DNA of 64,000 bases from a virus, in the IMG/VR virus record IMGVR_UViG_3300030102_004647, positions 9,371 to 73,370 of that record. The stretch is one strand, 5' to 3'. Each line of letters opens with the position of its first letter. Positions within the stretch are counted from its first letter, which is position 1. The notes under the pieces are model-generated. The model saw only the letters and a list, made by a program, of their open reading frames with translations, was not told where the DNA came from and ran no database searches. Both the position numbers and the translations under genes were made by a program. Below, in pieces: positions 249 through 56,428 of the stretch.

Positions 249-2164
249 TCTTCTTCTACCCATCTAGTTGACACGTCGATGTCGGCCCGCACAGGAACAC
301 GCAATTGTACACAGTTCTCCATGTGCTTCCTAGTTATATCTACTGCCTCACCGACTATGTCGGGATCTACTTCTAGCACCACCTCGTCATGCACCATGTT
401 GGTTGGAAAGACTTGCGTCATCCACCACCCCTTGTCAATAAACTCTTGACGAAGCTTCGACATCGACAACAACATCATTCCACATGCACTAGATTGAGGG
501 GCAAAGTTAATCAGTTGGTTCAGGGCATGCTTTGTGTGGTTCTTAACTGAATGCATCGGGATCCGTCTACGCCTGCCGAAAATGTCTTGACACTCGGCAG
601 TTCTCCACAACACATCTTGCATTTGCAGATGCCACCGATGGACTCCGATGTAGCCTGTGTTCTTGTCAAAGTACTGATCAATTACCTGCTGCCACTTCTC
701 CTTGCTGAACTCTGGATACTCGTATGCCAAGCGGAACGCAGTCGCAAAATAAACCAGAGCAAAGTTTGCAGTCTTCCCCTTCTGGCGGTCTCCTCTCAGG
801 GCCGGAACGAGATCCGTAGTCTGCTGATGAATGTCCTCCCCGTGCCAAAATCCTTTGTGTTCGTCCTCGAACACTCCACACTTCGGGCAGTTGTGCAGAA
901 TGACGTTGTGACTTCCAGACTCCCCGCAACTTTTGCAATGCCAAGAGTTGTATGCATGAAGGAACTTCTCGTCTTCTGCAATGTGAGCCACTAGCCTCAA
1001 CTCGATCTGTGAGAAGTCAGCAATGATCAGCTTCCGGTTGTTCTGTGCGATCACGTTGCCGCGAAGAGACAAATGCTTGAACTCTTTCTTTTTGGTCAAC
1101 CACTTGGGAATGTTTTGGAAGTTGGGCTTCTCGCATCGAGTGCGGCCCGTAGCAGATACCAACCAGTAGGTGGGATGTACTCGGCCATGCGGATCTGCGA
1201 GGTGCATCCTGGTCAGCGGTTCGATGTAAGTGTTGATCATCTTGGTCGCTGTCCGATAGGTTCGGATCTTCTCACACACTGGATACCTAGCTGCCAGGGT
1301 GTTCATCGCTGCTGTGTCAACTGAGTAACGCTTCCCGCTCTTGGTCATCTCGATCCCCTTGGTCGAATAGCCTAGCTCGTTGAACAGGCGAGTTGCTATC
1401 TGATCACCAGAGTCGATGTTCAGTTCTCCGATGTCTGCATAGATCTCTTTCTCTGTTTTGCGTCTGAGTACCTGGAACCCTCGAAGTAATCGACGGGCAC
1501 CATCAAGATCCCAACCGATCCCTGCCCGCTCCATGTCCGAGAAGACCAGTGCCGCAGGCATCAAGATCTTCTCGAACAGTTTGATTAGTCCTTGCTCCTC
1601 CAGTTCGGGCTTCATTTTTTTCCAGTGCCGCAACTCCCAAACTGCATCCTCAATGGCGTAGGTTGCGAACTGCTCGCTGTCCGGCCCCGCTGAGATAGAG
1701 TCTTGGAAGCTAGCCATCTTGTGACCGAACACATCCAAGGTCGAGGGTTTGAGTCCTAGCTCATGCGGACTGAGGTTGTCGTCAAGAAGATTGCGTCCGA
1801 CCATCGGATCCACAAACCGCTTCGGGTATTTTGTGAAACCAGCTGCGTGAATGCACTTGATGTCGTATTTGCCATTCCAGGCGATGGCTTCAATATCTTC
1901 AGGGAACAAAACGTCCAGGTATCCGAACGCTTTATCGATGTCCCGCTCATAGAACGAGATGTCCCCCGCTGCGAAAGAGATTCCATAGAGTTCAAAGTTT
2001 TCAGCGTGCGGGCCGATGTCGGGATTGTGTTCGATGTCCCAGGCGAACATGCCTTCGGCGCGGGCCGTATCTACAAAGTTTTGCATCCGTGACTTTCGAG
2101 AAAATAAAGGTGGGCCGGTTCGGAGGTCTATTCCAAAAACACCGACCGACCCACCCTTCAACAA
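245..2164 (-). CDS. polA: Family A DNA polymerase with 3'-5' exonuclease and a zinc-ribbon-like insertion
   Basis: Replicative phage DNA polymerase. The exonuclease domain shows Exo I AWDIEHN (about residues 41-47), Exo II NGKYD (97-101) and Exo III YAIED (169-173), so proofreading looks intact. The polymerase domain shows motif A DFSQIELR (383-390), motif B RQKGKTANFALVYF (460-473, Phe at the position of E. coli F762) and motif C VHDEV (591-595). Between motifs A and B, where most family A enzymes have a short loop, about 40 residues carry CKSC...CPKC (410-429), a likely zinc ribbon. The long frame opens with TTG at 2164 and has no good ribosome binding site; the first ATG is at 2086. The conserved look of residues 10-26 favours the upstream start. 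It follows the SSB gene by 8 bp. Confidence 0.95.
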   Translation of the reverse strand: MLKGGSVGVFGIDLRTGPPLFSRKSRMQNFVDTARAEGMFAWDIEHNPDIGPHAENFELYGISFAAGDISFYERDIDKAFGYLDVLFPEDIEAIAWNGKYDIKCIHAAGFTKYPKRFVDPMVGRNLLDDNLSPHELGLKPSTLDVFGHKMASFQDSISAGPDSEQFATYAIEDAVWELRHWKKMKPELEEQGLIKLFEKILMPAALVFSDMERAGIGWDLDGARRLLRGFQVLRRKTEKEIYADIGELNIDSGDQIATRLFNELGYSTKGIEMTKSGKRYSVDTAAMNTLAARYPVCEKIRTYRTATKMINTYIEPLTRMHLADPHGRVHPTYWLVSATGRTRCEKPNFQNIPKWLTKKKEFKHLSLRGNVIAQNNRKLIIADFSQIELRLVAHIAEDEKFLHAYNSWHCKSCGESGSHNVILHNCPKCGVFEDEHKGFWHGEDIHQQTTDLVPALRGDRQKGKTANFALVYFATAFRLAYEYPEFSKEKWQQVIDQYFDKNTGYIGVHRWHLQMQDVLWRTAECQDIFGRRRRIPMHSVKNHTKHALNQLINFAPQSSACGMMLLSMSKLRQEFIDKGWWMTQVFPTNMVHDEVVLEVDPDIVGEAVDITRKHMENCVQLRVPVRADIDVSTRWVEEE

Positions 2165-2172
2165 GGAGGAGT

Positions 2173-2853
2173 CTAGTATTCGACTTTGGCAGAGGTGCCT
2201 TCGGGATTTTTATCTCCCGATGACAAGCCCATCTCCCTACGGAGTTGAGCGACTACCTCGGCCTGCCTCTCGGCATTCGGAGCAAAGACTTCGCTCCAAT
2301 CGAATTCCTCTGTGTCCTCAAAGCCAGAAAGATCCACCATCTTCTCGAACTCAAACTGTTCACCGACTGCTGCCGATTTGTCGGAGTTAGTTCGATAGAC
2401 ATTAAACATTGCACCACGAAGCCCCTCGTCATTATCGAGACGCTTTTGATACAAACGCTTGAGGATCTCGGCTGTGTCACGCTTGGCAATCATGATCTTC
2501 TTGAGATTGCTTCGCTTGTTGCCCTGTCGATCAGTGAACTCATGTGTGTCAATGATCGTGAACGCATAACCAGTGTAACGCTTGAACTGGTTGGTCTCTT
2601 CGCTGAACTCTTTCAGCGGGTCGGGTGAGATGCCCAACCATTCCAAAGACGGAAACCAGTTCCTCCAGTCTCCACTTAGTCGGACTTGATGCTCCCAGAT
2701 GATGGGGGCTTTGTTGCCTTCGGTCAGAAAGATAATTTTTCTTTCTTCCCCCTTCGGCATCCAGTAGCGAAGGTTCGATGACCCTCTAGAACTTTTGTTG
2801 TCTGAACCGAGGCCGGTGTTTAGCCCGCCCTCAGATTCCCAAGGCTTACTCAT
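2173..2853 (-). CDS. Probable single-stranded DNA-binding protein
   Basis: A 226-residue acidic protein lying between primase and DNA polymerase, where many phages place their SSB. The N-terminal part (RYWMPKGEERKIIFLTEG, about residues 30-47) resembles the start of phage SSB proteins, in which a strand-rich DNA-binding core is followed by an acidic tail. The C-terminus here is acidic through about residue 195 (FEDTEEFDWSE). The start overlaps the primase stop by 4 bp (ATGA). The assignment rests mainly on position and general build; no diagnostic catalytic motif exists for this family. Confidence 0.6.
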   Translation of the reverse strand: MSKPWESEGGLNTGLGSDNKSSRGSSNLRYWMPKGEERKIIFLTEGNKAPIIWEHQVRLSGDWRNWFPSLEWLGISPDPLKEFSEETNQFKRYTGYAFTIIDTHEFTDRQGNKRSNLKKIMIAKRDTAEILKRLYQKRLDNDEGLRGAMFNVYRTNSDKSAAVGEQFEFEKMVDLSGFEDTEEFDWSEVFAPNAERQAEVVAQLRREMGLSSGDKNPEGTSAKVEY

Positions 2854-3842
2854 AACAGATCTCCTTTTAGAGATTTAAAAATGGAAACGATCTTTTCTTC
2901 CGGCATTTCGCCTACATCAAGATCACGGTCTCCCCAGGTTGCTCGTCGCAATCCATAGGTATTAGCTAGTTGCTGCTGGGCCATTTTGTAGCCCGCTTCA
3001 CCAGCTGAATCTTGATCGTACCAGCACTGTATATTCTTGTCCAGGCCCGCCAGGATCCCCGCTTGAATCTTTGTCATCTCGGCCCGCCATGTACACACCA
3101 CGCTAGCACCTAGCTGCTGCATCGTCGGCCACGCCCGCAGCATGTCGAAGAATCCTTCGACGACCACCACGGTCGAGTCCTCGGGACGAACTTTGTGAAC
3201 GCCCCCCAGGGTATTGCCCGCAGGGAATCCCAGATAATTCCAGTACCTCGGCTCGCCCTGCTTCAGCAATCTGCCCACCGCACCGACTAAGCTTCCGCTC
3301 TTCTGCCGGACTGGACACAGCACTCTGTCGGCCCGACCGTCATAGCGAAGATCGAACTCCGTGCAGACCTCCTCGGACACCTTGCGAAGTTGAAGGTAAT
3401 CCCTTGCTCTGTCCGATGCCCACGCCGGAGTCCATCGATCAAGGATCTCTTCGTTGAGGACCGTGAGCATGCCGCCCTTGCTTTCAGAAAACCAGTCGTC
3501 CATCCCGTGGATGCTGTCGATCTGGCTGGTCAGGGTGGGCTTGTCGTCTACCGCCAGCTTGTTAGCTAGCTGCTTGATCTCCTCGTTGCCCTCGAAGTGT
3601 CCCAGCATGTCCACAAGTTGCCACAGCCTGCCCTGGTTCTTGCAGGCGAAGCATTTGAACACCGTCCACTTCCCAGGATCCCCGTAGCGGATCGAGAGAC
3701 TTGGGTGGCTGTCTGACCCCGACTTGTGCGTATGTCCGGCCAGGATGCATGGGATCAGGATCTGGTTCGGCCTGCTGGCTGAGATCCCGCTGGTGTCCAC
3801 ACCCATCTTGTCCAAGACGACCATCAGATCGTTAAATGTCAT
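2850..3842 (-). CDS. DnaG-type primase: zinc-binding and Toprim domains
   Basis: Synthesises RNA primers for replication. The N-terminal 75 residues hold a CHC2-like zinc site (CILAGHTH...FKCFACKNQG). The Toprim fold shows the glutamate motif VVVVEGFFDML and the downstream aspartate motif WYDQDSAGEAG. At 330 residues it is shorter than bacterial DnaG and has no helicase domain; the helicase is encoded separately at 5.2-6.5 kb. It overlaps the preceding small gene by 4 bp and the SSB gene by 4 bp, so the three are translationally coupled. Confidence 0.88.
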   Translation of the reverse strand: MTFNDLMVVLDKMGVDTSGISASRPNQILIPCILAGHTHKSGSDSHPSLSIRYGDPGKWTVFKCFACKNQGRLWQLVDMLGHFEGNEEIKQLANKLAVDDKPTLTSQIDSIHGMDDWFSESKGGMLTVLNEEILDRWTPAWASDRARDYLQLRKVSEEVCTEFDLRYDGRADRVLCPVRQKSGSLVGAVGRLLKQGEPRYWNYLGFPAGNTLGGVHKVRPEDSTVVVVEGFFDMLRAWPTMQQLGASVVCTWRAEMTKIQAGILAGLDKNIQCWYDQDSAGEAGYKMAQQQLANTYGLRRATWGDRDLDVGEMPEEKIVSIFKSLKGDLL

Positions 3843-4000
3843 TTCTTCGTCAGCTTAATTTTTAGGAACCTAGCAAGGCCACGCATGTCCTCGCCTGCTT
3901 CCCCCTTTGTACTGTACGGCCCGACCCAGCGGAACCGGCTGTCCTTCTTCTCAAAGGGTCCAACGTAGTATCCTCGCTTACCTTTCTTAATCTTCAGCAT
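3839..4000 (-). CDS. Small basic protein of unknown function
   Basis: A 53-residue protein starting at the ATG at 4000 (MLKIKKGKRGYYVGPF). Lysine- and arginine-rich, with a repeated G-P-F/Y pattern (YYVGPFEKK, RWVGPYSTKG) typical of small SH3-like or DNA-contacting folds, though nothing diagnostic is present. It overlaps the gene before it by 14 bp and the primase by 4 bp, inside the replication operon. An upstream in-frame start at 4057 would run deep into the previous gene and is less likely. Confidence 0.6.
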   Translation of the reverse strand: MLKIKKGKRGYYVGPFEKKDSRFRWVGPYSTKGEAGEDMRGLARFLKIKLTKK

Positions 4001-4274
4001 AAACTGATTCCTTGTTGTAATAGCCCCCCTCAACAATCTCCGTCTCGTACTGGGCATTGATGATGTTCTGACGAAGCTCCTCCAGAACTTCTTTGAATAG
4101 TTTGTCGCATCTCTGTTTGGCTAGCTTGAACTCTTTGCTGTTCTCGCCGTACTGCATGTCGGCCCGACACACGCCCTTGCTGCACTCCCGCCATTCGTCA
4201 AATCTCTGGGGCATCTCCACCTGGAGAGCGGCCCCCTTCTTAGTTGCGAACAATAGTAATTGCTTATCACTCAT
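3987..4274 (-). CDS. Small protein of unknown function in the replication operon
   Basis: 95 residues from the ATG at 4274 (MSDKQLLLFATKKG), which overlaps the stop of the upstream gene by 8 bp. Mixed charge and probably helical; two cysteines (ECSKGVCRAD) fall near residue 30. An in-frame start further upstream at 4376 lies wholly inside the previous gene and was not used. I do not recognise the family. Confidence 0.65.
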   Translation of the reverse strand: MSDKQLLLFATKKGAALQVEMPQRFDEWRECSKGVCRADMQYGENSKEFKLAKQRCDKLFKEVLEELRQNIINAQYETEIVEGGYYNKESVYAED

Positions 4275-4674
4275 CTCCCCATGCCTCCATGACTTTCTTG
4301 TCAAAGCGATCATTGTCCTCCATCGGATCAATGCTTCCCCAGGAGAACGGACCCCCTTGGAAATCGTGCCTCTCAATGTCCCCGCTCTTGCGGTCCACTA
4401 CAAAGCAGAGCCATTCGATGTTGCCCTTCGAGTCCGTGAACTTGACATCGATATGGATGTCATCCGTTCCTTCGTCGTCAAGGAGAACGACATCGTCCAT
4501 GACGATCTTTCGCCTCGTTGCCAACAGGAGGAAAGGCATCGCAACTCGGAAGAGAACTCCGATGCGGAGTTGGTCTTCCGTAGGATTATCTGAAAAGACT
4601 TTGATGCCTCCCATGTCCGTCATCAGTTCCGTTCGGACGCGACCCTCTTTCATTAGCGAAATGTTGTTAATCAT
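4267..4674 (-). CDS. Unknown protein, first gene of the primase-SSB-polymerase operon
   Basis: 135 residues starting MINNISLMKEG. It is the first gene behind the consensus promoter at 4718-4745; its leader carries ACAAGGA about 11 nt before the ATG. The protein has an acidic strand-like middle (VVLLDDEGTDDIHIDVKF) and an acidic C-terminus. No family recognised. Position suggests an early function linked to replication. Confidence 0.7.
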   Translation of the reverse strand: MINNISLMKEGRVRTELMTDMGGIKVFSDNPTEDQLRIGVLFRVAMPFLLLATRRKIVMDDVVLLDDEGTDDIHIDVKFTDSKGNIEWLCFVVDRKSGDIERHDFQGGPFSWGSIDPMEDNDRFDKKVMEAWGDE

Positions 4675-4717
4675 AGCTTAGGTTCCTTGTTTCAAAGTTT
4701 TCGTTTTGTCTGCTCTT

Positions 4718-4745
4718 ATTATACCGCTATCGGAAATCTTGTCAA
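4718..4745 (-). promoter_or_regulatory. Sigma70-type promoter P1 with CCGATA spacer element
   Basis: On the minus strand TTGACA (4745-4740) and TATAAT (4723-4718), both perfect consensus, are separated by 16 bp. The spacer ends in CCGATAGCGG directly before the -10. Upstream of the -35 lies an A/T tract (AAAAAAAACTTTTGAGATTT), and before it the hairpin CTCCCTTTTAAGGGAG near 4783-4798. Downstream, the leader holds AAACTTTGAAACAAGGAACC ahead of the gene starting at 4674. One of six promoters of this design in the window. Confidence 0.9.
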
Positions 4746-4778
4746 GTAAAATCTCAAAAGTTTTTTTTCCCGCCTCCC

Positions 4779-5114
4779 TTAAAAGGGAGGATCGGGGGCA
4801 TCCAACAATTGCTGTCGTCGCATATCTTCCTCGAATGCCGCACGGCACTCGTCGCAGAGTTCTTGATGACAAACAGGAGTCTCGGGGCAATCGCAACTCG
4901 GTGGCTCCTCACCCATACGCTCCCAGCACTCGTCTTCGGGATGCGGTACAGGGGGTCCGGTGTAACTTGAATTCTTGTGCCACACATCTCGGTCAGTAAG
5001 AATCCACGGTTGCTCGGGATGCAACTGACCTAGCTCGCGGGCTTCTTCACGATCCCAATCGCCAGGAGTCGCATAGGTGAAATCTCGGTGTTCTTGTTCG
5101 GCTGGAGAAAGCAT
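4779..5114 (-). CDS. Acidic Cys-rich protein of unknown function
   Basis: 111 residues (MLSPAEQEHRDF...). It forms a single-gene unit between promoters P2 (5162-5189) and P1. The C-terminal half has a cysteine cluster (CDCPETPVCHQELCDECR) that could bind zinc, and there are many Trp, Pro and Asp/Glu residues. Its leader is nearly the same as that of the next operon (ACAAGGAACAAACC before the ATG). Likely an early phage protein made in quantity; function unknown. Confidence 0.75.
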   Translation of the reverse strand: MLSPAEQEHRDFTYATPGDWDREEARELGQLHPEQPWILTDRDVWHKNSSYTGPPVPHPEDECWERMGEEPPSCDCPETPVCHQELCDECRAAFEEDMRRQQLLDAPDPPF

Positions 5115-5161
5115 TGGTTTGTTCCTTGTTTCAAAGTTTGTTGCTCGCTTGTATGTCTCTT

Positions 5162-5189
5162 ATTGTACCTTTATCGGTTACATTGTCAA
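5162..5189 (-). promoter_or_regulatory. Sigma70-type promoter P2 with CCGATA spacer element
   Basis: Minus strand: TTGACA (5189-5184), 16-bp spacer ending CCGATAAAGG, TACAAT (5167-5162). An A/T tract (AAAAAAACTTTTGATTTTTT) precedes the -35, as at P1, and follows a CCCTTGTTTTATAGG-like element at 5222-5237 just past the helicase gene. The leader contains AAACTTTGAAACAAGGAACA, almost the same as P1's. Confidence 0.88.
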
Positions 5190-5237
5190 GTGAGATTTAG
5201 AAAAAATCAAAAGTTTTTTTACCCCTTGTTTTATAGG

Positions 5238-6521
5238 CTAAAACGAGACAGCCGGACTGGACGCAGGGCTTGAGGTAGAAGGTGCAGACATCGGCACTTC
5301 GGAGAAATCCATCTCCGTTGTGTTCCAGTTGATCTTCAACTCACCGGCATGATCACCAGCGTTGTCTCTCATTTTGAGGACGTGAATTTCCATCTGGTTG
5401 ATAAGCCTGAGATCCTCATTCGCGTAGAGTCCGAGAACCACGTCTGGGTCAATGACCCATTCTTTTCCGTAGCGGACACCCCAGGCTCGCATGTGCGGAC
5501 CTCGCTTTTTTTCTCGGCCAGTCTCATTGGCATCCCCTTGTTGGGTCGAGACGATCCACGGTATGTCGGTTGCTTCCGCTGAAATCTGCAAGTGGCGAAC
5601 GATCTCGACTTGCTGTTCCCACGAACCTTTTTTTCCGACAACTTCAAATCGGTAGCCGCCGTCGATGAAGAGGATGTCGGGCCGGTGTTCGAGTACAAAG
5701 TTTGTTGCGTCATCCACCGATTTAATGAGCATCTTGTCGGCAAGTAAGATGTCTCCAGATCCTTTAGTATCTCGTCTAACTTTCGACTTCCAATCTGCTT
5801 CGGCTGCAACATCTAAATCTCCATCTCGAAGTTTACGGAATGGTATCTGATATTGTACCGCATCGAGTCGTCTGGCGATACGTTCTGCTGACATCTCCAA
5901 AGTTATGAATCCGACACGCTTCCCCAAACTTAGTGCGTTGTTTGCACACTTAGCTAACCACCAAGTCTTGCCTGTGTTCTGCATTGCCGTGACTACATTG
6001 AACGTACCATTCACCCACCCCTGGATGCAGTTGTCTAATCCTTCCCACGGAGTCGGGACGCCTCGATATCCTCCAAAGGATTTCAAAGAGTCGTAGGTGT
6101 CGATCCGGCGTTCACCGTCCTCTCGATAACTAACCACCGAACTTCTGCGGACTTGCTTTCGCTTGATCTGCATCGTGGCTTCCGACACGATCTTCAAAGC
6201 TTCGTCGGGATCTCGATCTTCTAACTTCTCTGCGGCCCGCCTTAGCTGGGCCTGCATCATCTTGCCCATCGACCGCTTGCGAACCACATCACAAATGTAC
6301 TTGGGATTGTCTACCTCGTCGGGCAGATCCACCATGCAGTTCTCCTCAACCGACTTCCTAGAGGGCCAGTCGCCGGTATCCTTGATGTACTGCTTGATCC
6401 ACTCAAAGGCTTTGCCTGCCTCCTCGAACAGATCGTCCCTGGTCAGGTGGTAGTCGGCCAGGATCCCCATGTCCTGGGCCTCGATCAGGGTGTTGATTAG
6501 TCGCAGACCTACGCTATCCAT
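5238..6521 (-). CDS. DnaB-like replicative helicase
   Basis: 427 residues from the ATG at 6521, whose A is shared with the helicase loader stop (TGATG). The N-terminal 140 residues are helical, as in the DnaB collar. The RecA-like core shows Walker A (AMQNTGKTWW), followed by GKRVGFITLEMSAERIARR, Walker B (HRPDILFIDGG) and the QQ-containing sensor (IVSTQQGDANETGREKKRG). The last 20 residues are a Ser/Ala/Pro tail. An open frame continues upstream to 6668 but lies inside the loader gene. Works with the primase encoded downstream. Confidence 0.9.
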   Translation of the reverse strand: MDSVGLRLINTLIEAQDMGILADYHLTRDDLFEEAGKAFEWIKQYIKDTGDWPSRKSVEENCMVDLPDEVDNPKYICDVVRKRSMGKMMQAQLRRAAEKLEDRDPDEALKIVSEATMQIKRKQVRRSSVVSYREDGERRIDTYDSLKSFGGYRGVPTPWEGLDNCIQGWVNGTFNVVTAMQNTGKTWWLAKCANNALSLGKRVGFITLEMSAERIARRLDAVQYQIPFRKLRDGDLDVAAEADWKSKVRRDTKGSGDILLADKMLIKSVDDATNFVLEHRPDILFIDGGYRFEVVGKKGSWEQQVEIVRHLQISAEATDIPWIVSTQQGDANETGREKKRGPHMRAWGVRYGKEWVIDPDVVLGLYANEDLRLINQMEIHVLKMRDNAGDHAGELKINWNTTEMDFSEVPMSAPSTSSPASSPAVSF

Positions 6522-7114
6522 CAGATATTCATGTCCTTTCCGATATCCTTGCGGAAGTCGTGTCCCAGTACTTTGATCGGATAAGTGGCCTGATGTAACG
6601 CTGCTCCCATCGCGGGCCGGTTCCTCTCGATGTCCTGGGGGGTGTGGTTTGTTGTGATGATCGTACATTTCTCCTCGTCGATCCTGGCACGGACCAAGGC
6701 ATCAACGGCATCCTCTGTCCACTTCATCTCTGCCCGCATGTAGTACTCGTCGATGACCAACAGGGGAGATGTCCTGGCTCGCTCGTAGCAAGTTAGCTCG
6801 TCGTCAAACATCTCCTTCTCGATCTGATACCTGGGAAGATCTCCGGCTGATATCCAGTACCCGATGACCCCCTGGGCTGCTGCCGCTTTCAGGCAAATGG
6901 ATCCGATGGCAGACTTGCCGCTGCTGTACTCTCCGAACAGGAGGAGACCTGTCGGCTCCCAGACCTTGTTCACGATGTCGTCGCAGTACCGGACAATAGT
7001 GGACTTGTGACGGCAGGACTCTGGGATCCTGTCCAGTTCGGCCCGCCAGTGGCACTTTGGAATCCTGATACGCCTCAGATGTTCTTCAGTTAGTTGCATC
7101 TCCCCAACCTTCAT
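6521..7114 (-). CDS. DnaC-like AAA+ helicase loader
   Basis: 197 residues. The start is set at the ATG at 7114 because GGAGG stands 6 nt ahead of it; an upstream in-frame start at 7198 has no such site. Walker A is GEYSSGKS and Walker B is LLVIDEYYM, followed by a TTNHTPQDIERN sensor-like stretch, the usual order in DnaC/IstB-type ATPases. It lies directly before the DnaB-like helicase and overlaps the preceding DNA-binding protein gene by 29 bp, as expected for loader-helicase pairs. Confidence 0.88.
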   Translation of the reverse strand: MKVGEMQLTEEHLRRIRIPKCHWRAELDRIPESCRHKSTIVRYCDDIVNKVWEPTGLLLFGEYSSGKSAIGSICLKAAAAQGVIGYWISAGDLPRYQIEKEMFDDELTCYERARTSPLLVIDEYYMRAEMKWTEDAVDALVRARIDEEKCTIITTNHTPQDIERNRPAMGAALHQATYPIKVLGHDFRKDIGKDMNI

Positions 7115-7940
7115 CGGGTGCCTCCTCAATGCTTTGCGAGTCGGCTCTGGTAGCCAGTCCGCTTCGGTCAACTTTTTCTGTGGGAATCCCCTTGGCAATG
7201 TAGTTGCTTAGTCGATCACAAATCGATTTTGTAGCAAACAGTTGCAGCTGGGGATAGTCCATGTCTAACTTCAAGGGTTTCTTAATGCTGTCCCAGTTCT
7301 CGAACGTCCAGGTGACAACTTCTTTAGCAGAGTCCAGATCTCCGCAGTACTTTATAAATCTATTCGCGTATACAAACTTTATCCTGCGGTCGTCAAAGGT
7401 GGGACGAGTCTTATACAATCGCTGAGTTTCATTGACTATGTGATTGACAATAGTCGTGCTGGCTTTTTCATCTGAGACCAAACCACCTATGGTGTCATCG
7501 ACTAATTTTCTTTTTGCTTTCGACGAAATCCGTACACGCTTGACCTTGCTTTGTTCCGACTTTTCCTGTGCCAATGCACGGATCTGATCTAAGGTGCCCT
7601 GTGGTTTTTCTTTAACAGGAGGAGGCTCGGGGATGTCAGAGTACCAAGTTATCTCGATGCCGTCTTTTGTGCCCAACTGTAGTGTGTCATCCGAGGATCG
7701 AATCCACTTGAGATCGGACAGCTTCCGTAAATGGGAAGCAACAGTTAGCTCGGGGATGTTGAGCCGTTCCGCAATCGTTGCGCAAGATAGCCCGCTGCAC
7801 AACGCACCGGATGCTTTAGCCATGCGAGCGGTCACTGTCTCGTTTCGGACAATGTCGCTACGCATGCAAAGGTATACACAAATTTGCTCGGCTGTCAGAG
7901 GCAAAGGTTGAGCAAACAACTCAGCGGTGAATTTATCCAT
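7086..7940 (-). CDS. Winged-helix protein, probable replication initiator
   Basis: 284 residues. The N-terminal third contains a helix-turn-helix with wing (SCATIAERLNIPELTVASHLRKLSDLKWI, about residues 52-80). A basic linker follows (KVKRVRISSKAKRKL), then a helical C-terminal domain ending in an acidic tail. The arrangement, DNA-binding N-terminus and position just ahead of a DnaC-like loader and DnaB helicase, matches phage initiators of the DnaD/O-protein type. It starts 3 bp after the last tail gene, so it may depend on late read-through or on a promoter I could not find. Confidence 0.65.
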   Translation of the reverse strand: MDKFTAELFAQPLPLTAEQICVYLCMRSDIVRNETVTARMAKASGALCSGLSCATIAERLNIPELTVASHLRKLSDLKWIRSSDDTLQLGTKDGIEITWYSDIPEPPPVKEKPQGTLDQIRALAQEKSEQSKVKRVRISSKAKRKLVDDTIGGLVSDEKASTTIVNHIVNETQRLYKTRPTFDDRRIKFVYANRFIKYCGDLDSAKEVVTWTFENWDSIKKPLKLDMDYPQLQLFATKSICDRLSNYIAKGIPTEKVDRSGLATRADSQSIEEAPDEGWGDATN

Positions 7941-7943
7941 GTG

Positions 7944-10900
7944 TTAAATCGTGGTCTCGGTGAATAGCCTTACGTTAGAGATCTGTATTCTGTTTCCGAC
8001 TCCTGTAGAGATGCCGCCCGTTCTCGAAGTTTTAAATCTAATCTTGTATTTCTTTGCTTCTGCAATTACAAATGTTGAACTGATGTTACTTCGCTGCTTC
8101 ATTGTTGAAGGGGCACGGGTATCACTGTTCAAATCATTGTGCGTCCAGGTATCTACCAATCCGATGGTTAGCCCTCCAGTAGACGAATCGACATGGAGTT
8201 CTAGGTTGTCGAAGCCGCCGGAAATCATATCGTCCCGTGCATTAAATAGCAAGCGATAAAATCCAGCTTGCAGTTTTATCTCTTGCCAAATCTCTGCGGT
8301 CCCCCCAGGATAATCACCTCGCGGACGATTGTAGCCGTAGTCGGCCTGACCATCGTCTCCTGCAAGTCTGTCTAGAACATGACCTCGATAAGTAGAGTCA
8401 AAAGTTTGTAGGGTAATGTATCCGTCATCTATACGTGCCTCTTGCTTCTTTTGATACGGAATGTTGACACTGTATATGTTGATTCCGTCGATAGCGTCAT
8501 TGGTATCGTGATCATTGGCTGAAGTAAGTTCTCCCGTATCGTTCAGCCTCCAGGTAATGTTGTTAGCTGTCACCGTGTGAATACACTTGTCACTATTGTT
8601 GTATCGACTAGTCGATCCCTCAACAGATACCCATTGCTTTGGTATGAATCCAGCGGCCAGGAAATCCGTAGATGTTGAATTGATTCCATTCTCTAAGAAC
8701 GTGAGATCTGTAGCGGACAGAACTCTTGCTTGTGCGGCTTCGGTAGCTTCGCTCTTCCAATTCTTGCCATCTAGCTGACGAAGTGCAGGGTTGCCAAGAA
8801 TGTTAGACGAAGCCGATGTCTTGCCTAGATCTTCAAACGATTCGACGGTAATCGACATCGTTGCAGCCGGACTCTTGTCGTAGGCAATTGATATAGAGAC
8901 AACACGGCCCGTCACTTCTTCGGCACTGTAGGGAGTGTTGAACCTCACAACCCTGTTCAGTCCGACCTTCGGTGAGTACATCATGTCGATAGAATATCGA
9001 CGCCTGTTCATTTTGGCTTCTTGTAATACTCGGGCCGCGATCTTCGTAGCTTGGTAACGGTGTGCAATGAACTCGTTTGTGAACTCCTGACCTACATACC
9101 CAAACTGGTCCCGAAGGAAACTGTCATGGGCTGTTCCTTGGATCTTGGTAGGATGTTCTTGTGTTTGTAGACCCACATCTTTTTCATGACCTCCTCGTTG
9201 CCCGCTGCCGCTTCCTGGTTGAATGATGCCACCGGACTCTCGTAAAGCTTGACGGGTCTTCTGGAGTGCTTCCTCCGCAGTCACCTGTGGCACCGCAGAT
9301 TGACCTGTACCCCCGCCGCCTTTGCTGCCTCCTGCCTTTTCTGATTCTGCCGCTTTTTTCTCTTCCTCGACTTTATCTTCAAGAGCTTTCAGCTGCTCGG
9401 CCAGTTCATTCTGCTTGGACAAGATCTCGCTCATGTTCCGAATCGTCCAAGCATCTCGCCCTGTGATTACTTTTTGACGGGGAGCGGTTTCTTCCATTCT
9501 TACTCTACTGGAATCAAACCCTCCTGGTACTTTTATGTCGAACTTAATCTTGCGGATCTCGTCTTCTGCGACTTCTTCGGGATCGTCGCAAAAGAACTTG
9601 GGAGAAGAAAAAGCAGTCGGACTGAAGTAGTTATTCGGGAACCCTGCCCCGTCTCCTTCCATTCCGTCACCTCTTGCAACTCGCGGAGAGTTAGCCTGAC
9701 GACACATCGCCTTGACACGCACAGGGTCAAACTCCAAGCCTCCCTCCCGTGTGGGCAGGAATCCCGATCCGTCTGATACATAGTCAGCGTTCTCCACGCT
9801 GGGGTAGTCTGAAGCCCGCCCTCCATGGGCTTCGTTGCACAGCCATTCACTACTGTCGTATTCTCGACCATGCTCAACTTCGATCAGCTTCTGAGCTTTC
9901 CAATGGGCATTGATAGCGTCCACGACCTCGATGACTTGGCACCATCCCGTATAGTAAACGTCCACTTGCTGTCCGATTACATCCACAAAGCATCCAGTGG
10001 TCTGGTTGTTTACATTTGCGTAGTGATTGAGAAACTCTGTTCCTCCCGATCCAGTCACCGGATCGAATGGTAAGTAGTGCAACTGTACGCAGTTCTTCAT
10101 TCCATTTGCATATCGATTGTTGCCGCCGAATCCTTCAAATCTTTCGTTGGCTTTTATTACTATGGTGCCGTTAAGCCTCCATGGTTGGTTGTACGGCTGG
10201 ATCGCCATACCAGGATGAATATCATCTCGACCCTTGTACTTATGACCGACCGGCAAGTGAACAGTGTTCGCAGTATTATCTAGAACAAGTCTGTTCCCCC
10301 CAGAAGGAAACGGTAAATTATCATCATTGCATTCGACGACACTCCCATGCCCTGGGTGATCTTCCTCATCCCCAGGTTCCGCTGACACAAACTTGCTGGG
10401 ATCATTCTGGTTCATGAGTTCCAACATGCAGTGATCCCAAACTCTGAGAAACGCACCAGGATCTCCTGCCGCAGCACCTTGAGAATTTCCTACCGTGCCG
10501 CAGTTTGGTGTGCAACCGTACTGATATGCATACAAAAGATTTTCATACTCAATGACTTTCCTGTCCGCGATTGCAACAGTTTTTTGAGGTATTTCTCGGA
10601 CAGGGATGATCATTTTTTTGTGACCACCTCCAGCACCTGCACCTCGACCTACCGCCTCAAACGGATTGGTGTGCATGACCGGAACACCGACAGCCTCGTC
10701 CAGATACGGACCATTTTGTAGCGTACTCATGTAAGAGAGTAAGCTGTCTCGGTCGCTGATCGTAAACTGTTCGACAGCAGAGTTACCTTTTAGGGTCACC
10801 TCTCCCACGCCTGAATCGTTTGCGTCACCCTGATCTGTGTTAGAGTCGTCTCCACTACCGCCGCAATTTTGTTCCTGCTCCGAGTCGGAGTTTGCACTTT

Positions 10901-42759: not shown

Positions 42760-43401
42760 CTACAAAATTATTAAATTCTTTTTTGGACTCTCGGAGTCAG
42801 TTAGTATTCTGACAGCCTCCGCTTCGGCAGTATCTGAATCCGCATTTTTTTTGTCGGGCATCGCAACGTACAAAATTTCCAAGTCGGGCATGATACGCTT
42901 GTATGCCTCAACTGTGGGAAGGGTTGCAGCTTTAGCTGTGCAGTACGCAATCTCTTCTTCTGGAAGCTTGCTGGTTCGCTGATCAAGAAGGAAGATGCAC
43001 CTTGCTCCTTTGTTGAAACGATATGCCTGATACAAGTACATCGTGAGAATAAGCGGCCCGATCAAATTTACCTGGAACGCTTCCCGCATCTCATGAACAC
43101 TGATTAGCAGAGGATCTTGCGGGTCGTGGTGTGCAGCTGCATGCACAATCCCGTCAAGTTTGACTTCGTTACTGACCATCCAGTTTGCAACTTGAACAAT
43201 GGGCTTTCCTTCTAAAAAATCACAGGCCACCCAGTGATCCGTTTCAATAACCGGACTAAACGTCTCGGACAAGAACGCTTTTGCATGTCGTTGGATGTCG
43301 TACACAGTGTGTCGAGCATTTCGTAGCTCGGCCACAATCCCAGCACCGTACGATTTACTGGCACCCGTAACTGCATAAGTTCGTCGAATGGATTGGATCA
43401 T
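42760..43401 (-). CDS. Short-chain dehydrogenase-like protein
   Basis: 213 residues. NAD(P)-binding TGASKSYGAGI at residues 13-23, GIVHAAAHHD for the N-A-A-G-like region, and YCTAKAA for the YxxxK catalytic pair. Short for the family. Substrate unknown; nucleotide-sugar or sugar modification is possible given the many glycosyltransferases. Overlaps the upstream gene by 4 bp. Confidence 0.8.
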   Translation of the reverse strand: MIQSIRRTYAVTGASKSYGAGIVAELRNARHTVYDIQRHAKAFLSETFSPVIETDHWVACDFLEGKPIVQVANWMVSNEVKLDGIVHAAAHHDPQDPLLISVHEMREAFQVNLIGPLILTMYLYQAYRFNKGARCIFLLDQRTSKLPEEEIAYCTAKAATLPTVEAYKRIMPDLEILYVAMPDKKNADSDTAEAEAVRILTDSESPKKNLIIL

Positions 43402-43766
43402 GCACCGGCTCCTCCTTTAGGTACAACAATCTTTGGCTGTCGATCCTGTTCGACACGCTTATCTGCAATCTCTTTCAAGTGTTCAACCTTCGCATCGATA
43501 TCAACAGAAAAGATATCGAGCATCTGATCGACCTGCTCGTCCGGCAAAAATGCAACGAGTGCCTTGATCAATGAAGTGGTGACCCCTAGCTGCTGCTGTA
43601 GTTGCAGCTGAGACTCCTTCATGCCCATCAACACGTTGATCAGGCTCTGGGGATGGACACTGCCCTCTACCGTCATGCCCAACTTGACGCTGCCCTCTAC
43701 CTTTTTGATCGCCTCCATCAAACGGTTTTGACCGTCGATGAACTTCTCTTGATCGAACAATTCCAT
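43398..43766 (-). CDS. Unknown helical protein
   Basis: 122 residues, mostly helix (LINVLMGMKESQLQLQQQLGVTTSLIKALVAFL), with a basic tail ending GGAGA. It begins inside the 3' end of the alpha-CTD-like gene (49-bp overlap), and a copy of the palindrome (43783-43798) lies 17 bp before its start. Unrecognised. Confidence 0.6.
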   Translation of the reverse strand: MELFDQEKFIDGQNRLMEAIKKVEGSVKLGMTVEGSVHPQSLINVLMGMKESQLQLQQQLGVTTSLIKALVAFLPDEQVDQMLDIFSVDIDAKVEHLKEIADKRVEQDRQPKIVVPKGGAGA

Positions 43767-44038
43767 TGAGTGGCTCCTTCCAGTGCATATGTATGCACTT
43801 TCTTGACATGTATTTGTTTGTGTATACCTGCGTCAGCGAGTGCTGACATTAGCTGCCTATGAGTTGCAATGTCGTACCCGCTGACATTGAACAACTCGGT
43901 GGAGGTCTTGCTTAAAACTGCTCCGATAGTATCCAAGCCTGCACGCTCCAGTGCGTTTTGGGCGCGTGTCCCCAGGCCGGACTTCTCAAGATATGAGACG
44001 GGCTGCTGAATTAGAACTTCTAGCCGTCGAGTTATCAT
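43718..44038 (-). CDS. Free-standing RNA polymerase alpha-subunit C-terminal-domain-like protein
   Basis: 106 residues from the ATG at 44038 (MITRRLEVLIQQPVSYLE). Residues 13-72 (PVSYLE...SGLGTRAQNALERAGLDTIGAVLSKT...) line up with the alpha-CTD: PVxxLE, then a segment matching E. coli VRSANCLK as TRAQNALE, keeping the counterparts of R265 (R25) and N268 (N28) that bind UP-element DNA, then the helix-hairpin-helix and ASRGL-like end (ADAGI). The K298-region loop differs. The last ~30 residues are Ser/Lys-rich and untypical. There is no N-terminal alpha domain, so it may add to or replace host alpha at promoters with A/T tracts. Next to csrA-like gene. Confidence 0.8.
   Translation of the reverse strand: MITRRLEVLIQQPVSYLEKSGLGTRAQNALERAGLDTIGAVLSKTSTELFNVSGYDIATHRQLMSALADAGIHKQIHVKKVHTYALEGATQWNCSIKRSSSTVKTV
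43783..43798. promoter_or_regulatory. Copy of the dispersed 16-bp palindrome
   Basis: GTGCATATGTATGCAC, a perfect dyad, 17 bp before the start at 43766 and inside the 3' end of the alpha-CTD-like gene. Confidence 0.6.
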
Positions 44039-44084: not shown

Positions 44085-44378
44085 CTAGGAGGGTTGCGTT
44101 TCCGCAATCCTGGGGAACTCTTCGTTTAGCCTCTCCCACAACTCGCTTCGATGAATTTTGATCAGTTCATGAGCTTGAAACGCCAACCGACCTCGGTCTT
44201 TTGTTTCGCCCAAGTAAGTGACCTCAATAGTGCCTCCCAAAACTCCTTGGAGTTCTGAGCAGATATCCTCGATGCCCTGACCGCAATGTGCTTTTTCATA
44301 AGCGAATGCAATCACCTCTTTAAGAAAGGACAAAGATATCACCACTTTTTCTTCTGGCTTCCGTGACAGTACTAGCAT
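44085..44378 (-). CDS. csrA: CsrA-like translational regulator with helical insertion
   Basis: 97 residues; typical CsrA is about 60. The start MLVLSRKPEEKVVIS (1-15) and the end TIEVTYLGETKDRGRLAFQAH ELIKIHRSELWERLNEE (about 50-86) cover strands 1-2 and strands 3-5 plus the C-terminal helix. RNA-contacting residues L4, R6 and the Arg of IHRSE (E. coli R44 site) are kept. Between them (16-49) are about 34 extra residues, helical by eye. RsmN/RsmF also has a helix inserted between strands 2 and 3 but lacks the C-terminal helix; this protein seems to have both. It lies beside the alpha-CTD-like gene, and several phage leaders contain ACAAGGA. Confidence 0.85.
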   Translation of the reverse strand: MLVLSRKPEEKVVISLSFLKEVIAFAYEKAHCGQGIEDICSELQGVLGGTIEVTYLGETKDRGRLAFQAHELIKIHRSELWERLNEEFPRIAETQPS

Positions 44379-44834: not shown

Positions 44835-44878
44835 GGTTATTTACCACTCCCCCCTCGCAAGCCTTCAACAAGGATATT

Positions 44879-45301: not shown

Positions 45302-45329
45302 ATTATACATCCGTTATCGGCCACGTCAA
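45302..45329 (-). promoter_or_regulatory. Sigma70-type promoter P3 with CCGATA spacer element
   Basis: TTGACG (45329-45324), 16-bp spacer containing CCGATAACGG, TATAAT (45307-45302). The T-run of the preceding terminator (45341-45348) lies 12 bp upstream of the -35 and doubles as an A/T tract. The leader carries ACAACCTTTCAACAAGGAAC. Confidence 0.88.
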
Positions 45330-45340
45330 GAATAATCTTT

Positions 45341-45370
45341 AAAAAAAACCCCTCGCCCTTAGCGGGCGAG
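45341..45370 (-). terminator. Rho-independent terminator overlapping the end of a small gene
   Basis: Minus strand CTCGCCC-GCTAA-GGGCGAG, a 7-bp perfect stem, followed by GGGTTTTTTTT. The loop holds the TAA stop (45361-45359) of the 45-residue gene. Confidence 0.92.
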
Positions 45371-45543: not shown

Positions 45544-45571
45544 ATTCTACTAACTTATATCGGCAATGCAA
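45544..45571 (-). promoter_or_regulatory. Promoter P4 with CCGATA spacer element
   Basis: TTGCAT (45571-45566), 16-bp spacer starting TGCCGATATAAG, TAGAAT (45549-45544). A second CCGATTGCGG-like element lies directly upstream (45581-45572), and a CCCTATTTTTATAGGG stem at 45604-45619 precedes it. Weaker -35 than P1-P3. Confidence 0.75.
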
Positions 45572-45603
45572 CCGCAATCGGCCAACAAAATCAAATTATT
45601 TCA

Positions 45604-45620
45604 CCCTATAAAAATAGGGG
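45604..45620 (-). terminator. Possible terminator or insulator hairpin upstream of P4
   Basis: Minus strand CCCTAT-TTTT-ATAGGG (6-bp stem), followed by A/T-rich sequence without a clean T-run. Located between the glycosyltransferase gene and promoter P4. Similar CCCTTGTTTTATAGGG elements precede P2 (5222-5237, partial) and the ncRNA promoter (56330-56345). Confidence 0.45.
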
Positions 45621-49598: not shown

Positions 49599-49778
49599 CT
49601 ATTTGTCGCCGTCTTTCGCAAACAACAAACCGATTGCTGCTGTGACAGCTGCCACCGTGGTTGTCCAATCCGGCTGGTCGCCGTTTACCAATGCAAGGGC
49701 AGCATGTGCTACAGCAATCCCCGCAGTGATAAGACCAGCAACCGTAGTCTTGACGTTACTTCTTATATCTTTACCCAT
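49599..49778 (-). CDS. Small two-TM holin-like protein
   Basis: 59 residues from the ATG at 49778 (MGKDIRSNVKTTVAG), with GGAG 8 nt ahead. Two hydrophobic segments (about 10-33 and 38-54) with a short polar turn (NGDQPDW) and a charged tail (AKDGDK). It is the last gene of a cassette with a cysteine protease and other membrane proteins. Size and topology match class II holins; no direct proof. Confidence 0.65.
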   Translation of the reverse strand: MGKDIRSNVKTTVAGLITAGIAVAHAALALVNGDQPDWTTTVAAVTAAIGLLFAKDGDK

Positions 49779-55172: not shown

Positions 55173-55200
55173 ATTATACTACCGTTATCGGCAATGTAAA
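55173..55200 (-). promoter_or_regulatory. Promoter P5 with CCGATA spacer element
   Basis: TTTACA (55200-55195), 16-bp spacer containing TTGCCGATAACGGTAG, TATAAT (55178-55173). The T-tracts at the end of the ncRNA (55212-55230) stand directly upstream of the -35 and serve as A/T tract. Confidence 0.85.
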
Positions 55201-55211
55201 TCCCTAATCTT

Positions 55212-56247
55212 AAAAAAAAATAAAAAAAAAGTGGGTTCCTACTTCTGAGCAGGGTGTGAGTGAATATGCCCAGAGATTGCGGCGGCTTGTGCTTTAGGGG
55301 CTACGTTCCACTCAGGATCAATGTCCACTTTTGTGCTGCATCAGGTGGGACCGTATTAAGTTCCCAGCTGAGAGGTCTTATTTCAACCCTTCCCCATGTT
55401 CGCTCTGCATACCCCCTTCCGAACCTCTTACGAACTTAGGATCAACTCCCACGTTTGGACACTGCATAGTTTCGCTCCTCCCCACAACTGGATTGCACTC
55501 TTAGTGCGTGATGCCGAAGCACTCCCGTCACAGTTTGGCCCACTAATTAGCTCCGCACGGCCTGCCAGATTCGCACTGGAGGTCAGCTTCAAAGATCCGT
55601 ACTGGTTTATAGCATGAACCCACTCGATTGAATGACTAAGATCTTGAACCGAAACGGGGAGATTTTTGCTGATCAGGCTTATCAGGAGGCGTGTTCCGCT
55701 TTGTCTATCGCTTTCAACCCTCCTGCGAGATTGTCACACGTTCGCGATGTGCGAGTCCCGTCTGGCCGAATTACACGGCTCAAGATCTTAGCCACTCGGA
55801 GTGTATTGGATGGCTGACTCGTAGGGGAGTTCAACCCCCCGACACTGCATCCGAAAGTGAAACGCTGTAATACGTTTCAGGATGCGGTTGTTCAACATCG
55901 TCATGTCGAACCCCGATTGTCCATTTACTTTCAGAAGTTACATCAGTGCCGCTTGCACAAGCGAGCCATTCAATACACTCCATCGAGTGTGAGAGTAGCA
56001 GACTCAACGCTTCACTTCTCCGGTGCTTGACTGTAAGAGCTACTCCGGTCGAGGATTTTTAATCTTGCGAATCATGCCTCATGTTTTCACACTTTGCAGA
56101 AGCGTTGAGCTTGCTACTCTCGAAGTTTTGTCGTACTGGAAACCAGCCGGTGGGTACTTCTCCTCGACTCAATCGTCGTGACCCGTGAGTGATGTCGCTT
56201 GTTTCATTCCATGTAAGTGAGTCACTCAACTCACACTCAACTCTCAT
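55212..56247 (-). ncRNA. Large (about 1,035 nt) structured noncoding RNA
   Basis: No protein gene fits this stretch. A CCGATA promoter (56255-56282) puts the 5' end near 56247, and T9-A-T9 at 55230-55212 marks the 3' end. A terminal helix closes the molecule: 56229-56243 with 55247-55261 (13 of 15 pairs). Inner helices seen: 56099-56121 with 55991-56013 (21 of 23 pairs with a tandem AG/GA internal loop); 55777-55793 with 55634-55650 (17 pairs, two G-U); 55683-55689 with 55719-55725; hairpins 55975-55990, 55950-55963, 55890-55911, 55847-55885 (two stacked stems), 55824-55840, 55511-55522 (C-UUCG-G loop) and 55495-55507. Not a tRNA, rRNA or tmRNA that I can recognise. Size and build recall the phage-borne giant RNAs GOLLD and ROOL; identity with either is untested. 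Confidence 0.85.
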
Positions 56248-56254
56248 GTTCTTA

Positions 56255-56282
56255 ATATTACCATTATCGGAAGCATTGTCAA
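56255..56282 (-). promoter_or_regulatory. Promoter P6 of the ncRNA, with CCGATA spacer element
   Basis: TTGACA (56282-56277), 16-bp spacer ending CCGATAATGG, TAATAT (56260-56255). A second, inverted copy of the element (CCGATAGCGG on the plus strand, 56315-56324) and A/T-rich sequence lie upstream. There is no leader with ACAAGGA, as expected for an RNA that is not translated. Confidence 0.85.
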
Positions 56283-56283
56283 G

Positions 56284-56428
56284 AGAAATCCAGACAATCT
56301 GAGAAAATAGTTTGCCGATAGCGGTTTAACCCTATAAAACAAGGGAAAACTATTTTCAACTATTTTTAGAAAAGTGCAGATGTCTGCACATCCGTACAGG
56401 TAATTTTTCCGTTTTCGGATGATTGAAA
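56284..56428 (-). promoter_or_regulatory. Upstream control region of the ncRNA promoter
   Basis: 145 bp with no gene. In order on the minus strand: a small TCCG-AAAA-CGGA stem next to the stop of the GT-like gene; the 16-bp palindrome GTGCAGATGTCTGCAC (56374-56389); A/T tracts; the CCCTTGTTTTATAGGG element (56330-56345); and an inverted CCGATAGCGG (56315-56324). Confidence 0.6.
56374..56389. promoter_or_regulatory. Copy of the dispersed 16-bp palindrome
   Basis: GTGCAGATGTCTGCAC on the plus strand, about 90 bp upstream of the ncRNA -35. The minus strand continues with TTTTCT, so it could also act as a weak terminator for the gene at 56429-57283. Confidence 0.6.

Follow-up and report, generated by a model that had tools for sequence, protein, structure and literature searches.

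The A/T tracts upstream of the CCGATA-type promoters of this phage fall into blocks that keep a fixed register with the -35 hexamer. They occupy the same position from promoter to promoter, are repeated along the record and recur in relatives. Because their A/T maxima coincide with the positions of α-CTD subsites, the tracts are probably UP elements for a host σ70-type RNA polymerase, set in a promoter cassette that the phage re-uses; we infer from this register that α-CTD binds them and that they raise promoter strength. Sequence alone thus suggests that an entire family of promoters keeps the α-CTD register in an uncultured phage lineage, an observation that implies standard σ70/α-CTD recognition in the phage's host. 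The promoter set, with UP blocks and a putative operator in the spacer, is clean and testable.

Promoter set and relatives

The window, that is the whole stretch of DNA analyzed, is 64,000 nt long and corresponds to positions 9371-73370 of a 78,953-bp IMG/VR virus record. All coordinates are window coordinates; negative ones refer to L001 and those >64000 to L002. The genes in the window lie mostly on the minus strand. No close relative of the phage was found among 50,697 named phages, with replication proteins at <30% identity. Related contigs were retrieved using the DnaB-like and α-CTD-like proteins as queries, and the whole records were then read. G001 and G002 are apparently one close relative split in two, with G001 covering the genes to ~21.8 kb and G002 the rest.

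CCGATA, the left half of a palindrome described below, was the search key for promoters. The scan of the phage record and related contigs yielded 37 promoters whose spacer contains a CCGATA-type element and whose -35/-10 hexamers are near consensus. The phage record has 11 of this type as well as a variant promoter (-7780), and every one of them is on the minus strand; the names P1-P6 of the initial annotation were assigned from the order of the sites. A search with a fixed 17-bp-spacer pattern matched no promoters, because the spacers are 16 bp. In genome contigs, the promoter-pattern matches listed were scattered, mostly in unrelated bacteria, and matches in viruses outside the family were mixed.

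A duplicated cassette at P1 and P2

The elements of the first two promoters are as follows.

4747-4768, minus strand: P1 UP-like tract AAAAAAAACTTTTGAGATTTTA, 22 nt at -59 to -38, read from the sequence; 97% identical in G001
4740-4745, minus strand: P1 -35 hexamer TTGACA
4724-4733, minus strand: P1 spacer palindrome CCGATAGCGG, putative operator; CCGATAACGG in the relative G001
4718-4723, minus strand: P1 -10 hexamer TATAAT, 16-bp spacer
4682-4700, minus strand: P1 leader/RBS segment AAACTTTGAAACAAGGAAC, 100% identical to the P2 leader
5190-5220, minus strand: P2 UP-like tract A7-CTTTTGATTTTTTCTAAATCTCAC, 9 nt further outward than in P1
5184-5189, minus strand: P2 -35 hexamer TTGACA
5168-5177, minus strand: P2 spacer element CCGATAAAGG, putative operator; core identical in G001
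5162-5167, minus strand: P2 -10 hexamer TACAAT
5121-5139, minus strand: P2 leader/RBS segment, same as the P1 leader (repeat search)

On the minus strand, P1 reads A8-CTTTTGAGATTTTAC-TTGACA-16-TATAAT (tract 4746-4768; T8 on the plus strand at 4761-4768) and P2 reads A7-CTTTTGATTTTTTCTAAATCTCAC-TTGACA-16-TACAAT (T7 at 5214-5220). The initial annotation described the two tracts as nearly the same, and they do match at 88% over 24 nt (4748-4771 and 5201-5224). According to the repeat search, the likeness extends past the tract to a 47-nt core (74%) and a 19-nt leader (100%). Since core and leader are repeated besides the tract, the whole regulatory cassette is duplicated. Start-to-start spacings between P1 and P2 are 453 for the tract, 444 for the core and 439 for the leader, and the distance from tract to -35 hexamer is 9 nt greater in P2, about one helical turn. 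The promoter at -6057 has TTTTTTGATTTTTTCTAAAT..TTGACAATGTAACCGATA in common with P2 and represents another partial copy of the cassette. Compared with mobile promoter-stem-loop cassettes, tract, core and leader are common to P1 and P2, and the stem-loop is inconsistent. Scored against a full UP consensus of 15 positions, P1 matches at 10/15 and P2 at 9/15, whereas control offsets average 4.98.

Phasing of the A/T blocks

Thirty non-redundant promoters were aligned on the -35 hexamer, with its first base as -36. A/T maxima are found at -41 to -43, -51 to -53 and ~-60 to -63, and minima at ~-46 to -48 and directly upstream of the hexamer. The peak minus trough value is 0.272, against 0.001 ± 0.051 in dinucleotide shuffles (0/1000). 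Taken by group, the shuffle test gives 0/1000 for the window's clade and 1/1000 for the distant relatives. This statistic was defined once the first A/T profile had been seen, and its positions are the published α-CTD ones. A stricter rotation test, with near-duplicates removed and each upstream stretch rotated so that the tracts were left whole, gives 0.225 for 22 de-duplicated promoters (2/5000); by group, the result is modest for the near set, the window's clade (117/5000), and 43/5000 for the far set. The A/T profiles of the two groups correlate at 0.47 (68/5000).

The phasing is absent (0.016) from 827 chance -35/-10 matches without a CCGATA element in the same records, for which the largest value among 2000 subsamples of 30 is 0.170. 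A/T-tract coverage is 0.45 at the promoters and 0.11 at the chance promoter-like sites.

Subsites for α-CTD have been described as centred at -42 and -52, with “phased AT-tracts” (PMC4496709), and the UP range is given as -40 to -60 (PMC2613000). The phage tracts are A/T-rich over ~-40 to -60, with maxima near -42 and -52 and a third near -62, so the earlier suggestion that they are possible α-CTD sites is supported at the sequence level. A different reading, which we consider unlikely, is that intrinsic bending of the DNA, or a nucleoid protein of H-NS/HU type, mediates the action of the tracts rather than α-CTD. Textbook phased A-tracts do occur among them (A8CCA8GGA8 at 69503 in L002, period 10), but the A/T maxima coincide with α-CTD subsites close to the hexamer, and many tracts are short or mixed, with little bend expected. 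Moreover, UP function does not require bending (PMC4496709).

Over seven orthologous promoter pairs, identity is 97% in the core, 93% in the leader, 85% in the tract and 86% further upstream. The tract is therefore no more identical between relatives than its flank, yet it has far fewer gaps, with 4 gap columns against 67 further upstream. The tract of P4 is only 50% identical to its G002 counterpart because the upstream sequence differs, and both are A/T-rich. Thus the letters vary while A/T character and spacing are kept, as would be expected of an element read by its shape.

The promoters P3 to P6 comprise the following elements.

45572-45581, minus strand: P3 extra palindrome copy CCGATTGCGG
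45566-45571, minus strand: P3 -35 hexamer TTGCAT
45554-45563, minus strand: P3 spacer element CCGATATAAG
45544-45549, minus strand: P3 -10 hexamer TAGAAT
45302-45329, minus strand: P4, with TTGACG, CCGATAACGG (45311-45320) and TATAAT
55173-55230, minus strand: P5, with TTTACA (55195-55200), CCGATAACGG (55182-55191) and TATAAT (55173-55178); T9AT9 upstream
56255-56345, minus strand: P6, with TTGACA (56277-56282), CCGATAATGG (56261-56270) and TAATAT; weak A/T tract
56315-56324, minus strand: P6 second palindrome CCGCTATCGG

A/T runs had also been reported at P3, P5 and P6. Those at P3 and P5 are borne out, and P4 has one as well; the run at P6 is weak. Little or no tract is seen at P6 and at both G005 promoters.

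CCC...GGG elements upstream of the promoters

The initial annotation placed a CCC...GGG element beside P1, P2, P4 and P6 and raised intrinsic termination as its role. The elements found are listed here.

4773-4790, minus strand: P1 CCC...GGG element CCTCCCTTTTAAGGGAGG, overlapping the stop codon of 4779-5114; then CGGG-A8, no U-run
5222-5238, minus strand: P2 CCC...GGG element GCCTATAAAACAAGGGG, stem ~3 bp
45604-45619, minus strand: P3 hairpin CCCTATTTTTATAGGG, no U-run
45341-45370, minus strand: intrinsic terminator CTCGCCCGCTAAGGGCGAG-GGG-T8 upstream of P4, hairpin at 45352-45370
56330-56345, minus strand: P6 CCC...GGG element CCCTTGTTTTATAGGG, marginal stem

Clean hairpins are formed at P1 and P4, and at P3 too, with only 3-4 bp at P2 and P6. 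The P1 element is kept in G001, where it has a 7-bp stem. As intrinsic terminators, the elements hold up at P4 only, where CTCGCCCGCTAAGGGCGAGGGG-T8 combines a 7-bp stem, GGG and T8; P1, P2, P3 and P6 are without a U-run, and the hairpins of P1 and P3 are followed by A-rich rather than T-rich sequence. A pattern scan for minus-strand terminators in 1500-8500 returned none. Stems that reach 5 bp or more and include 3 G-C pairs occur in 58% of random 110-nt windows of G000, and hairpins upstream of promoters in general show no clear excess over random windows. The CCCTATAAAA(A/C)A(A)GGG-like motif recurs 32-51 nt from these promoters in several records. It occurs in either orientation, and its behaviour is not that of a terminator working one way. 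The CCC...GGG elements are probably the separate 3' ends of the preceding genes, with a standard intrinsic terminator at P4 only.

At L025 (G002 50437, minus strand, and 50529, plus strand), divergent CCGATA promoters have one CCCTATAAAATAAGG element between them, common to both. The transcript from 50529 starts with ACATGAGAGTTG, as in the P6 RNA discussed below, and continues into coding-like sequence.

These elements bear on the possibility that the tracts mostly derive from the U-tracts of terminators upstream, or reflect the A/T richness of intergenic DNA in general, and have no role in initiation. The T8 at P4, which belongs to a true terminator, also occupies the A/T position in the -50s, and the preceding unit ends in T-runs both before P5 and before the -7780 variant promoter. 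Against this, A/T content at -60 to -38 is 0.77 in G000, compared with 0.55 in other non-coding sequence, and it is phased with the -35 hexamer; the majority of tracts consist of A-runs on the coding strand, with no hairpin before them. We therefore regard such an origin as improbable and retain the UP-element reading.

The phage α-CTD-like protein

43718-44038, minus strand: α-CTD-like protein, 106 aa (Pfam PF03118, fold comparison)

Profile and structural model assign this protein an α-CTD fold. Pfam PF03118 (RNA_pol_A_CTD) matches with an E-value of 3e-5, at 24.1 bits against a cut-off of 23.8. The AlphaFold2 model, built with four homologues, has pLDDT ~80 over residues 11-70. Its best alignments are with α-CTDs, with Z 11.3 and an rmsd of 1.4 across 65 residues for 1z3e_B; HhH domains of the RAD51 type rank lower. 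For comparison we used the DNA-contact residues of α-CTD, R265, N268, G296, K298 and S299. Read by eye, SGLGTRAQNALERAG with R265- and N268-like residues is invariant in the four homologues, and the second, GKKS-type DNA-contact motif is replaced by GYDxATH.

Among the relatives, orthologues are present only in G002 and G003/G004; in the latter the α-CTD-like ORF and the next gene product form one fused ORF of 271 aa. In the window the ORF overlaps the next one (43398-43766), the two together spanning 43398-44038 on the minus strand. Directly before it lies a CsrA-like gene (44085-44378, minus strand; Pfam E-value 5e-11), and ACAAGGA, the end shared by the leaders, is similar to the CsrA consensus ACARGGA.

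The initial annotation paired the tracts with this protein. It might bind them, compete with or replace the host α-CTD, and so boost or shut off the promoter set. The fold, the Pfam match above cut-off, the invariant SGLGTRAQNALERAG and the adjoining CsrA-like gene speak for such a role, and T4 is known to target α-CTD R265 (PMC2988021). However, the promoters of G006 and G009 have the same phasing (0.338 together) with no detectable α-CTD-like gene, although the neighbouring genes are present on these IMG/VR contigs, which are of unproven completeness and maybe fragments. The tracts therefore seem not to need the protein, and the pairing finds no support. The GYDxATH replacement also weighs against it, as does G003/G004, where the protein is fused and just one CCGATA promoter was found. 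Taken together, a role at the tracts has little probability, and the function of the protein is narrowed, since it appears dispensable for keeping them. Slightly less probable still is a scheme in which the free phage α-CTD binds the phased tracts of a dozen promoters and, with a repressor of the spacer palindrome, selects promoters for host polymerase; if true, the phage would supply its own α arm in trans.

The spacer palindrome

The palindrome CCGATANCGG, of which CCGATA is one half, lies inside the promoter spacer. Similar forms in G000 include CCGATAGCGG, CCGATAACGG, CCGATAAAGG, CCGATATAGG and others; in relatives they are GCCGATACCGGC or CCGATACCGGC (six G009 promoters), CCGGTATCGG (G005) and CCGAAATCGG (G006). 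Allowing up to one mismatch, the window has 20 copies where shuffles have 7.9 ± 3.4, and extra copies are found upstream of P3 and P6. As CCGATA was the search key, only the right half (nnGG) is independent evidence for the palindrome. The hexanucleotide had been taken as a promoter element; an operator is the better reading, because the sequence is palindromic and its offset within the 16-17 bp spacer is variable, 2 to 6 nt from the -35 hexamer in the window. The CCGATANCGG-type palindrome is most likely a repressor operator, to which a repressor would bind.

A 298-aa protein (L001:1674-2570, minus strand) is conserved in G006, G007 and G009 and belongs to phrog_17202, of unknown function. 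It has an HTH-like stretch, by eye, and Pfam and PHROGs searches gave it no name; as a candidate binder of CCGATANCGG it is our guess. Dispersed palindromes also occur in relatives, with GCAAACGTTTGC at five places in G005 (L032-L033) and GCAAACGATTGC in G006 (L034-L037).

A possible anti-leader motif and the P6 RNA

The 12-mer TCCTTGTTGAAG is present in three copies on the minus strand (2156-2167, 44863-44874 and L001 ~1661-1672, or -7698), each of them lying between a stop codon, which it closely follows, and a hairpin resembling a terminator. Both G001 and G002 retain it, and G002 has another copy, TCCTTGTTGA, before a terminator at 49623. The leaders of P3, P5 and the -6057 promoter contain CTTCAACAAGGA, to which TCCTTGTTGAAG is perfectly complementary. 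When pairing of TCCTTGTTGAAG with ten leaders was predicted, the mean duplex energies were -15.4 to -17.7 kcal/mol, compared with -6.7 for random 20-mers (0/2000). The motif is possibly a 3'-UTR anti-leader or an sRNA. In Staphylococcus aureus, icaR shows 5'-3' UTR pairing, in which part of the 3' UTR is complementary to the Shine-Dalgarno region (PMC3868564). Unlike that of icaR, the phage motif recurs before three terminators and matches the leaders of several units, and so could act in trans.

The region driven by P6 (55230-56254, minus strand) is ~1 kb long, has no long ORF and is highly structured. Over the first 456 nt, the P6 RNA and its G002 counterpart covary, folding into 123 pairs of which nine are compensatory, changed on both sides, and none is broken. 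The relative L024 has a P6 RNA with two insertions; L069 and L076, considered as homologues, were rejected, both being mRNAs. An Rfam search of the window and of the P6 RNA gave no match.

Proposed model and comparison with known systems

We propose that the α-CTDs of the host polymerase would bind A/T blocks one helical turn apart, at ~-42, -52 and -62, and that this grip would make the phage promoters strong. The cassette, comprising A/T tract, TTGACA, a 16-17 bp spacer with the CCGATANCGG-type palindrome, TATAAT and a short RBS leader, appears to have been copied to about a dozen sites across the phage genome, and a repressor at the spacer palindrome could turn the whole set off.

Arbiol et al. 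reportedly described mobile regulatory cassettes (PeSLs) of T4-type phages in 2010. Like these, the promoter cassettes here are re-used before unrelated genes, some of them beside stem-loops; PeSLs are mobile, whereas our cassettes are recognized by their repetition. The tracts resemble rrnB P1-type UP elements in their phased A/T blocks upstream of -35 with maxima at -42 and -52 (PMC4496709, PMC2613000). They differ in the spacer palindrome and, often, a third block near -62.

The combination of strong σ70 hexamers with UP elements is of a known kind among phage promoters, as in the T4 early promoters, which likewise have near-consensus hexamers, serve many units and use host polymerase (PMC2988021). 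The T4 early promoters carry an extended -10, while those described here contain CCGATANCGG in a spacer of 16-17 bp. T4 modifies R265 of the host α subunit, whereas this phage encodes an α-CTD-like protein.
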